A stretch of DNA of 64,000 bases. It comes from Armatimonadota bacterium. Its GTDB lineage: Bacteria; Armatimonadota; Fimbriimonadia; Fimbriimonadales; Fimbriimonadaceae. Below are positions 3,495 to 57,208 of the stretch, piece after piece. The stretch covers positions 1 to 64,000 of the forward strand of contig JADFMN010000008.1 in the NCBI GenBank assembly GCA_022563855.1, written 5' to 3'. The notes beneath the pieces are model-generated. The model was not told where the DNA came from. It made no database searches and saw only the letters and a list, made by a program, of their open reading frames with translations. A program made the translations under genes and the position numbers. Each line of letters starts with the position of its first letter. Within the stretch, counting starts at the first letter, position 1.

Positions 3495-3520
3495 CGGCTC
3501 GCGGGGACGCTCGCCCTCCC
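3495..3520. repeat. Dispersed intergenic repeat G, copy 1
   Basis: GGCTCGCGGGG followed by ACGCTCGCCCTCCC. Near-identical sequence occurs at 28668-28693, and a copy split by another repeat lies at 55968-56036. It lies downstream of the deoB stop, between deoB and tRNA-Pro. Confidence 0.75.
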
Positions 3521-26814: not shown

Positions 26815-26859
26815 CCTGAGCAGAGCCTGTCCTGAGCCAGTCGAAGGATCGAAGGATCG
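26815..26859. repeat. Dispersed repeat E, copy 1 (CCTGAGC...TCGAAGGATC)
   Basis: CCTGAGCAGAGCCTGTCC then TGAGCCAGTCGAAGGATCG with a second GAAGGATCG. The complementary motif TTCGACACGCTCAGGACAGG is at 55987-56006. Similar sequences are common in intergenic DNA of environmental bacteria. Confidence 0.75.
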
Positions 26860-28667: not shown

Positions 28668-28693
28668 TGGCTCGCGAGGACGCTCGCCCTCCC
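28668..28693. repeat. Dispersed intergenic repeat G, copy 2
   Basis: GGCTCGCGAGG then ACGCTCGCCCTCCC, one base different from the copy at 3495-3520. Confidence 0.75.
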
Positions 28694-54965: not shown

Positions 54966-55583
54966 ATGACCGCAAGGCTTGATTTATCGGATGAAGAGGT
55001 CGCAGCAGTCGTGCAGCGAGCTCACGAGATTCACTCGCTCGAGGATCGACTGGACACCTCCGAATCACAGTACGAGCAGTATGTGAAAGTTGCGGAAGAG
55101 ATGGGTGTTCCGCGCGATGCGATGATGCAGGCGTTGAACGAACGGTTCGCTTTTTTGGAAGAAACGCTGAACGAGGGGGATTTTGTCTTTGCGAAATCCG
55201 GCGACGGACATCACTACGTTGCGCGGATCGACAAGGTCGTCGATTCAGGCGCGCACGTTAAGTTCTTGAACGGCAGCGAGGCGGCGGTCGGACTGCACGA
55301 CCTGCGCAAAGCGTCCTTCACCCCGGGCAGTTCACTCGACTTTCTCTCTAAGGACTACGGGATGTTCATCAGGGGCCGGTGCGTGCAGTTCAACAGCGCA
55401 GCTCAGACCGTGACGGTCAGCGCTTGGGGCGAGGAGTACACCGTGCCATTGCACAAGGTCCGCATTCGGAAAGAGAGATCTCCGAGCAAGTTCAACGCGC
55501 GCGCGCTGATTCTCATGATCGCACTATCCGCAGTCGCCGGCGGTGGAATCGGCGCTGCGATCATGTATCTAATCGCTCGGTGA
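54966..55583 (+). CDS. C-terminally membrane-anchored protein with beta-barrel (Tudor/SH3-like) core
   Basis: 205 aa. Residues ~1-60 are a helical, charged region. A central beta region at ~68-165 contains GDFVFAKSGDGHHYVARIDKVVDSGAHVKFLNGSEAAVGLHDL, which has the alternating pattern of a Tudor- or SH3-like barrel repeated at VQFNSAAQTVTVSAWGEEYTVPLHKVRIRK. A C-terminal TM helix (LILMIALSAVAGGGIGAAIMYLI) anchors it with the bulk in the cytoplasm. It lies 3 bp after the Usp gene. Function unknown. Confidence 0.72.
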   Translation: MTARLDLSDEEVAAVVQRAHEIHSLEDRLDTSESQYEQYVKVAEEMGVPRDAMMQALNERFAFLEETLNEGDFVFAKSGDGHHYVARIDKVVDSGAHVKFLNGSEAAVGLHDLRKASFTPGSSLDFLSKDYGMFIRGRCVQFNSAAQTVTVSAWGEEYTVPLHKVRIRKERSPSKFNARALILMIALSAVAGGGIGAAIMYLIAR

Positions 55584-55608
55584 TCGATTGCCTTGCAAGC
55601 TGTGATCG

Positions 55609-55818
55609 GAGGGTGGCGCTCCTGCGACACCGCGCCGTCTGCGCGACGTTTCGTGGACGACGGAGGGTGGCACTCCTGCGACACCGCTCTTCGGTGCTGC
55701 CGACAGTTCCTTGAGCGGATGGGACTGCTGCTGTCGAACCCCTCACCCTAACCTCTCCCTCAAGGGGAGAGGGGACGGTCGAAACTCTGCTTTGGAGGGT
55801 GGCACTCCTGCGATACCG
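55609..55818. repeat. Three copies of a GGAGGGTGGCrCTCC element
   Basis: Copies at 55609-55632, 55662-55686 and 55794-55818 share GGAGGGTGGC(A/G)CTCC followed by TGCGA(C/T)ACCG. The inner part (GGAG..CTCC) can pair into a small hairpin. The copies are spaced by unrelated sequence. Confidence 0.85.
55738..55776. repeat. Hairpin repeat B, copy 4
   Basis: CCCCTCACCCTAACCTCTCCC, TCAA, GGGGAGAGGGG (written in parts). Perfect CCTCTCCC/GGGGAGAGG arms around a short loop. Confidence 0.8.
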
Positions 55819-55842
55819 TGCGCTCGACCCGATTCTGTACCG

Positions 55843-55917
55843 CCCCCTCCTAACCTCCCCCGGCCACGAAAGTTTGCAACCGTCGACAGCCCGAGGGCCT
55901 GGGGAGGGATTCGGAGC
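55843..55917. repeat. Intergenic hairpin repeat A, copy 4
   Basis: CCCCCTCCTAACCTCCCCC then GGCCACGAAA, a ~28-nt loop, then GGCCTGGGGAGGGATTCGG. Almost identical arms to the copies at 17586 and 28523. Confidence 0.87.
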
Positions 55918-55961
55918 GCGGGCGTTTGGCCCGCACCCCGGTCCGCGGACATTCAGTCCGC
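55918..55961. repeat. Two perfect hairpins (GCGGGC/GCCCGC and GCGGAC/GTCCGC)
   Basis: GCGGGCGTTTGGCCCGC at 55918-55934 and GCGGACATTCAGTCCGC at 55945-55961 both have 6-bp perfect arms around 5-nt loops. The second shares its core with the hairpins at 17531-17576. Confidence 0.8.
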
Positions 55962-55967
55962 CAGCAC

Positions 55968-56036
55968 GGCTCGCGGGGTCCTTTCCTTCGACACGCTCAG
56001 GACAGGCTTGCTCAGGATGACGTGCTCGCCCTCCCC
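55968..56036. repeat. Repeat G, copy 3, interrupted by dispersed repeat E copy 2
   Basis: The left half GGCTCGCGGGG (55968-55978) and right half GCTCGCCCTCCCC (56024-56036) match the intact G copies at 3495 and 28668. Between them lies the E sequence TCCTTCGACACGCTCAGG / ACAGGCTTGCTCAGGATGACG. The junction looks like an insertion of E into G. Confidence 0.75.
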
Positions 56037-56038
56037 GG

Positions 56039-57208
56039 CTAACCCAACCGCAGCCAGGCGCATTTGAGATACAGCGCCTCGGGGAACTGGATGGGTGCGG
56101 GGTGGTCGAGGTCTTGGTACGTCATGTCCTCGAGGAACAGCCGAACGTGCCGGTCGCTGGCGGCGAGGCGGCAGATTTCGATGAGTTCTTTCTGGATCAA
56201 CTGATACGAGCACGAGCAGGCGATGATGCGACCGCCCGGATTCAAATGCGGTAGAGCGTTGTGCACGAGCTTCCACACGGCCCACTTCAGCGCGTCGCGC
56301 GTCTTGCTCGTCTTGCTGATCGCCGGGGGATCGAGCACGATCCAGTCGAACTTCTCGCCCTCGTTCCCTTCGAGCCATTCGAATAAATTTGCCTCGATAA
56401 ACTCTCCACTTAAACCGTTCGCTTCAAAGTCCTTGCGCGCGGTTGCGAGCGCCTTTTCGTGCAGGTCGATGCCGACCACAGAAGCCCCGGCACGTGCGGC
56501 GTGCATGGAGAATGCGCCGGTGTAGCAGAAGCCGTCGAGCACCCGGTCTCCCTCCAAAAGGCGCTGCGCGAACAGCCGCCGCGTGTTGCGCTGGTCGAGG
56601 TAAAAGCCGGTCTTCAATCCGTTCTTGATCAGCGCAGTCATCCGCAGTCCGTCCTCTTCGATCTCGATCTCGTCCGGCGTCTCTCCGATCAGTTGGCCGC
56701 TCGTCGGCTCGAGCCCTTCTTCCTTGCGTCCGGCCATCTCGCTCTTTTCGTACACCGACTTTGCGCCGGTCGCCGCAACCAGCGCGGGCAGCCAGACGGA
56801 CTTCAGTTTCTCCATGCCTTTTGATCGCACCTGCACGACCAAGTGACCGTCGTACTCGTCGATGATCAGGCCAGGAAGCCGATCGGCCTCGGAGTAGACG
56901 ATGCGCCGCGCGTTCGTCCCCGCGACCAACAGATCGCGCGCGGTGACAGCCGAACGAAACCGCCTTTCAAAAAACGCCTCGTCGATCAGCTCTTCTTCCA
57001 ACGACAGCACGCGAAAGCGGAACCGGCTCTGCGAGTTGTAAGTGCCAACCGCCAGAAACTCGCCCGTGCTAGAAACCAGCCGCGCCAAATCCCCGTCCTC
57101 GACATCCCCCTCCACGCGCACGACCTCGCCCCGCTGTATCCACGGGTAGAAGTTGCGCACCTTGCGCTCTTTTTTGGGTTTGAGTATGATGGTTGCCAGT
57201 TCTGACAC
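56039..57208 (-). CDS. RlmI-like class I SAM-dependent rRNA methyltransferase
   Basis: 389 aa from a GTG. N-terminal PUA domain (~1-75: LKPKKERKVRNFYPWIQRGEVVRVEGDV), a middle linker domain with YEKSEMAGRKEEGLEPTSGQLIGETPDEI, and a C-terminal Rossmann methyltransferase. SAM motif I is VLDGFCYTGAFSMHAARAGA, the acidic residue is in VVGIDLHEKALATAR, and the catalytic/target region is DWIVLDPPAISKTSKTRDAL, with a C in IIACSCSYQL. The layout matches RlmI/RlmK-type cytosine-C5 methyltransferases. A TAGAGT ends 6 nt before the GTG and there is no SD, suggesting a leaderless mRNA. Confidence 0.92.
   Translation of the reverse strand: MSELATIILKPKKERKVRNFYPWIQRGEVVRVEGDVEDGDLARLVSSTGEFLAVGTYNSQSRFRFRVLSLEEELIDEAFFERRFRSAVTARDLLVAGTNARRIVYSEADRLPGLIIDEYDGHLVVQVRSKGMEKLKSVWLPALVAATGAKSVYEKSEMAGRKEEGLEPTSGQLIGETPDEIEIEEDGLRMTALIKNGLKTGFYLDQRNTRRLFAQRLLEGDRVLDGFCYTGAFSMHAARAGASVVGIDLHEKALATARKDFEANGLSGEFIEANLFEWLEGNEGEKFDWIVLDPPAISKTSKTRDALKWAVWKLVHNALPHLNPGGRIIACSCSYQLIQKELIEICRLAASDRHVRLFLEDMTYQDLDHPAPIQFPEALYLKCAWLRLG

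Follow-up and report, generated by a model that had tools for sequence, protein, structure and literature searches.

The window, a stretch of 64,000 nucleotides of an Armatimonadota bacterium (contig JADFMN010000008.1, positions 1 to 64,000 of the forward strand), holds an intergenic region of 455 bp that contains three copies of a hairpin repeat, H, other dispersed repeats, and a composite in which one repeat, E, lies inside another, G. The features that bear on this composite are given below by position and strand.

54966..55583, plus: upstream gene bordering the repeat cluster
55608..55631, plus: intact H (GGAGGGTGGCGCTCCTGCGACACC), upstream in the same intergenic region as the composite
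55662..55685, plus: second intact H, 1 mismatch
55794..55817, plus: third intact H, 2 mismatches
55968..55978, minus: 3' half of G (CCCCGCGAGCC on the minus strand)
55979..56023, minus: inserted E, double form (AC-GTCATCCTGAGCAAGCCTGTCCTGAGCGTGTCGAAGGAAAGGA on the minus strand)
55984..56002, minus: inner E core TCCTGAGCGTGTCGAAGGA
56024..56035, minus: 5' half of G (GGGAGGGCGAGC on the minus strand, GGAG at its foot); the same half is found in 38 intact own-genome copies
56039..57208, minus: downstream convergent gene bordering the repeat cluster, a putative rRNA large-subunit methyltransferase-like ORF (named from its sequence)
3496..3520, minus: intact G, E-less
28669..28693, minus: intact G, E-less, CCTC loop variant
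26815..26859, plus: double-form E copy in a GGAGCGCG...TCGC (U-like) context

On the plus strand G is split at 55978/56024, as the initial annotation had proposed: GGCTCGCGGGG (55968-55978) and GCTCGCCCTCCC (56024-56035) enclose TCCTTTCCTTCGACACGCTCAGGACAGGCTTGCTCAGGATGAC plus GT (55979-56023). The insert measures 43-45 nt and interrupts G, a hairpin repeat of 24-25 nt, at its apical loop; it is made up of a CGTC tag and, after it, two E cores, one nested within the other. This split pattern occurs once in the window and in none of 100 dinucleotide shuffles. The two intact G copies of that annotation are real, the shuffles again giving none: the copy at 3496-3520 is exact, and the copy at 28669-28693 carries one mismatch (GCGaGG) that had gone unrecorded. 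The insert was also said to be the reverse complement of the E copy at 26815-26859, and it does match that copy, near 26815-26848, in reverse complement at 82.7% identity over 52 columns; the coordinates reported there are correct to within 1 nt. An Rfam search of the window gave only three tRNAs above the gathering score, with no match at the composite locus. A terminator reading of the locus was rejected on a single weak match, not more than in shuffles. Other dispersed repeats (for example CCTAACCTCCCCCGGCCAC..., CCTCACCCTAACCTCTCCCT... and CACGGGCTATCGCGCCGTTCG) occupy 55608-55960 and many own-genome loci, where they and the composites crowd shared intergenic regions into mosaic clusters.

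G and H exist as hairpins in their own right. G reads GGAG-GGC-GA-GCG-TCCC-CGC-GA-GCC on the minus strand and forms a small hairpin, interrupted by an internal GA/GA mismatch; its intact E-less form is GGAGGGCGAGCGTCCYCGCGAGCC. Exact intact copies number 38 in the own genome and 14 in the congener (the only one sampled), while 127 and 35 occur in two genomes from a different family of the order, both with zero copies of E. Because these G-rich genomes outside the genus lack E, G is independent of it. The outcome named beforehand as fatal to a nested insertion, that the halves of G occur apart as independent elements, was not what we found: four genomes have G as a 24-nt unit standing alone. 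One E-free genome (G049, e.g. C13:66836-67160) has tandem arrays of up to about nine G copies, with periods such as 38, 33 and 25 nt. H is present in about 31 E-less copies and elsewhere hosts E. Folding gives a hairpin for both repeats and places the insertion point in its loop; relative to its own shuffles H has a z of -3.2, and G, at -0.05, is not more stable.

Repeat E is short and non-coding, resembles a hairpin and bears (C)GTC as a tag at its 5' end. Its single form is (C)GTCATCCTGAGC-NNNN-CGAAGGA, and in the double form one TCCTGAGC...CGAAGGA unit is nested in another, as at 55979-56023. The tag CGTCATCC/GTCATCC makes the 5' foot of most copies, and the stem is TCCT/AGGA with GA mismatches, its A unmatched by T in most own-genome copies. 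Gathered by the exact core, E has about 100 copies in the own assembly of 22 contigs (101 exact-core matches), 92 of which were analysed for flanks. Among relatives its distribution is sporadic: four copies in the congener and zero to two in each of the other family genomes sampled, with one exception of 24. In a genome of the same phylum (G078; L183, L197), E-like sequence takes the form of TGTC-tagged inverted pairs, ATGTCATCCTGAGCGCAGCGAAGGATCTC...GAGATCCTTCGCTGCGCTCAGGATGACAT, in the classical layout of a REP dimer.

The composite is not peculiar to the window. Nine split G copies of the own genome are filled with E, the halves 24-54 nt apart and E always in the same orientation; at C6:180763, C6:6001 and C13:9816 the composite recurs end to end with 87-93% identity. 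Given 47 G loops, each of 6 nt, and some 100 copies of E, chance would place about 0.009 E in G loops. The remaining own-genome split-G matches with a 24-54 nt gap are tandem G or chance, and those of two E-less genomes from the other family, likewise tandem G arrays or chance, contain no E. The nested insertion of the initial annotation thus stands, but not as a single snapshot, for it is recurrent, specific to the loop and specific in orientation. A search for the G/E junction pattern across 84,980 species produced three coincidental matches, all without the rest of E, and a search for the composite in plasmids and phages produced no match.

The junctions are nearly precise, and in G and H hosts alike E keeps a single orientation. 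Intact G, GGGCGAGC-GT-CCYC-GCGAGCC, becomes GGGCGAGC-(AC/A/GC)-GTCATCC...AGGA-CCYC-GCGAGCC when filled, so that the 3' loop part CCYC is kept and GT is replaced by AC, GC or A, then GTCATCC. For H, the intact GGTGGC-GC-TCCT-GCGACACC becomes GGTGGC-(AC/GC)-GTCATCC...AGGA-TCCT-GCGACACC, and in the cleanest copy (L035) E enters between GC and TCCT with the hairpin otherwise unchanged. E is also found in at least three further palindromic contexts, U (the GGAGCGCGGAC...CCGC hairpin), V (CTCTCCCC...GGGGAGAG) and W (GCGCGG...CCGCGC). For 35 of the 92 copies, about a third, the script recognised no hairpin host, a few of these being recognisable by eye. A target-site duplication, which the initial annotation expected the flanks to define, is not visible around the E copies. 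Among E-filled G copies both the E subtypes and the CCTC/CCCC loop alleles vary, which argues for several insertions into G; the composites may also have been amplified in part as composites. The filled G folds no better than shuffles, which is what an insertion that disrupts the hairpin would give, and not what would be expected if the structure were selected.

In the congener the syntenic flanking genes lie 25 bp apart, versus 455 bp here, with amino-acid identities of 48.5% for the upstream gene and 70.4% for the downstream methyltransferase-like gene. The repeat cluster was either gained here or lost in the congener, and because the entire intergenic cluster is absent there, the locus offers no E-less allele of this G copy. 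The absence of the cluster joins the sporadic distribution and the several hosts with near-precise junctions in supporting the earlier suggestion that E is or was mobile.

The largest group of E copies, T (28 of 92), has E at the apex of a palindrome whose arms vary between copies and yet stay complementary. Many T arms begin with AGTCCCCTCAACC. In 12 of 14 pairs both sides have changed. The covariation of the arms reaches 0.580; shuffles give 0.182 (sd 0.022), and sliding the arms gives no more than 0.15. T together with E folds far better than shuffles (z -6.1). For all 92 copies the flank complementarity is 6.46, compared with 4.10 (sd 0.18) for swapped flanks, and a stem score of at least 9 is reached at 25 of the 92 E sites versus 16 of 3000 random window sites. 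A single E-less palindrome with T-like arms was found; with T hardly ever lacking E, its arms may belong to the element rather than being its target. The four E copies of the congener, judged by eye, have inverted-repeat arms unrelated to one another, two of them perfect over 12-13 bp, one of about 10 bp and one of about 7 bp. One of these copies, with 13-bp arms, sits in frame inside glyQ, at a site where the loop is highly variable in length and sequence among relatives. In the own glyQ (C9:65519-66487) a different palindrome, CCCCCTCCTCCATT...AATGGAGGAGGGGG, falls in the same variable region, and both members of the genus therefore have a palindromic insertion in this part of glycyl-tRNA synthetase alpha.

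Candidate enzymes are encoded in the genome. Five of seven own-genome proteins score above the NCBIfam cut-off of 80 for the REP-associated tyrosine transposase (NF047646), the other two just below, and the HxH motif (HUH) is present in these proteins. PMC8266576 and PMC6006769 describe the RAYT class as working on tagged hairpins of single-stranded DNA, and members of IS200/IS605 as active on the lagging strand. None of the scanned Y1 transposase genes has E beside it, and the scan, made in four genomes, showed no G core closer than about 1.2 kb to a Y1 gene; only one scanned transposase gene has a G copy nearby, at about 1.3 kb. As none of the transposases is flanked by E, the mobiliser of E is one we infer. 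CGTC REPs have likewise been described without a dedicated transposase (PMC3733652), with which the Y1 genes lacking E alongside agree. A Y1_Tnp match (C1:285658-285837) is in frame and stop-free within the ORF of the carbamoyl-phosphate synthase large subunit (L289:1753-4461, minus), between CPSase_L_D2 and CPSase_L_D3, an unusual place for a transposase domain, in frame in a core metabolic enzyme.

Several other explanations have to be weighed. E could be a conserved module at the tip of a larger RNA or DNA hairpin whose arms diverge by compensatory substitution, with E reaching G and H by exchange of tips, through recombination or gene conversion at short shared motifs, and not by transposition. 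The interrelated and strongly covarying T arms, the folding of T with E, the near absence of T arms without E, and the GTC common to the G loop and the E tag are all in keeping with this. It sits poorly, however, with the abundance of E-less G and H, with hosts G/H and T that are unrelated in sequence, with an E-in-G that forms no stable nested hairpin, with relatives that are mostly nearly free of E, and with the mutually unrelated arms of the congener copies, and we regard it as unlikely, although the most serious of the competing accounts. The palindromes could instead be made by E itself, if E lands beside a sequence X and fold-back (template-switch) synthesis copies X opposite, the arms being the product. 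Congener copies with near-perfect arms of unique sequence, including the one within the glyQ coding sequence, and the near lack of E-less T palindromes would follow from such a process. It leaves E in G and H unexplained, however: their arms are identical to those of dozens of E-less copies and are found in E-free genomes, and in both repeats the two arms are imperfect, those of G having GA/GA mismatches. We consider this route improbable.

About equally improbable is a single ancient entry of E into G, the composite having then been amplified as a unit with E no longer mobile. The common orientation and insertion point of the nine E-in-G copies would be its natural consequence, but the mixed E subtypes and host loop alleles point to G-hosted E that is not monophyletic, and E is also found in H, U, V, W and T contexts. 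Chance juxtaposition or an assembly artefact might be suspected in a multi-contig assembly rich in short repeats; with no match in 100 shuffles, and refuted by recurrence at nine separate places of the genome, it has next to no probability.

The explanation that we prefer, with a probability of roughly two in three taken as a whole, is that E is a mobile, REP-like hairpin, tagged with CGTC, whose preferred insertion sites are hairpin loops. E would move as single-stranded DNA, would land preferentially in the loops of hairpins extruded on single-stranded DNA such as that of the lagging strand, and would insert without target duplication; repeated rounds would give nested products, E inside E included. 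The enzyme, acting in trans, might be one of the Y1/HUH REP-associated tyrosine transposases of the genome. These parts are not equally firm: insertion is the probable reading of the composites, the loop-targeting rule is about evenly balanced, and the assignment to a REP-associated tyrosine transposase is tentative. A positive role for the host cell would be unneeded, as the pattern fits a selfish non-autonomous element for which the other hairpins serve as landing pads. We counted for this explanation the occurrence of G alone, the oriented E-in-G, the near-precise junctions, the flank complementarity, the T covariation, the congener arms, the sporadic E, the spacing of 25 bp versus 455 bp, the five transposases and the fold results. 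Counted against it were the lack of an E-less allele of this very G copy, T palindromes that are nearly never E-less, the third of E copies that are hostless, a G no stabler than shuffles, transposase genes without E flanks and the possible amplification of composites.

Comparison with known systems places E and G near two REP superfamilies. E resembles the CGTC REPs (Di Nocera et al. 2013, PMC3733652) in being short and of high copy number, in its unpaired (C)GTC at the 5' foot of the hairpin, and in that no dedicated transposase was found adjacent. These REPs have CGTC (or TGTC/CCTC) at one palindrome end, as does E, and a stem of 8-9 bp with complementary A-T in the first two positions and a loop of 4-5 nt, which E does not have; its stem is the short TCCT/AGGA with GA/GA mismatches. 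Its own-genome copies are, moreover, mostly single and not head-to-head dimers, and sit in hairpin loops. G and H resemble GTAG REPs and BIMEs as short imperfect 24-nt hairpins with an internal mismatch and high copy number, G being also clustered, and tandem in a related genome; they differ in the tag at the foot, GGAG and not GTAG (or GYAG/GTRG-like), and no flanking cognate RAYT gene was found. E lacks two structural features of the CGTC class and G lacks the GTAG tag, and we therefore file them as formal members of neither superfamily.

REPs within palindromes are already known (PMC3733652), as are IS elements that target REPs (PMC1525189). T. roseum GTAG-23, H. neapolitanus CGTC-1 and A. 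variabilis GTAG-15 (PMC3733652) have, like E, a longer palindrome with a REP in its middle, but with one palindrome consensus per species; E has several unrelated hosts, other REP-like families among them, keeps a fixed orientation, and shares its genome with plentiful G and H copies that lack it. IS1397, IS621, ISPpu9 and ISPsy8 (Tobes and Pareja 2006, PMC1525189) are mobile and use REPs as precise landing sites, but they are autonomous, of kb size and have their own transposase gene; E is non-coding, 25-45 nt long, with hosts that differ in sequence, and the insert of 43-45 nt is too short for a gene. The enzymes of IS200/IS605 and TnpA-REP/RAYT, a class present here, recognise tagged single-stranded hairpins and are candidates only for acting on E; in the available text of PMC6006769 and PMC8266576 we found no description of loop targeting by IS200/IS605 or RAYT enzymes. 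In the open-licence literature we found no report of a REP-like family that repeatedly occupies, always the same way round, the loops of several other such families, and this recurrent oriented nesting of REP in REP loop looks new.

The way in which CGTC-tagged REPs spread is explicitly left open in PMC3733652, and the nesting pattern hints at how non-coding repeats choose their landing sites. It is possible, if somewhat doubtful as a general rule, that CGTC-type REPs transpose as single-stranded DNA into the loop of any extruded hairpin, selecting the target by shape and not by sequence, and that REP families nest as a result. This genome supplies hairpins naturally with and without an insert, a single orientation of E and a few candidate enzymes, and insertion directed by shape would be directly testable with oligonucleotides.
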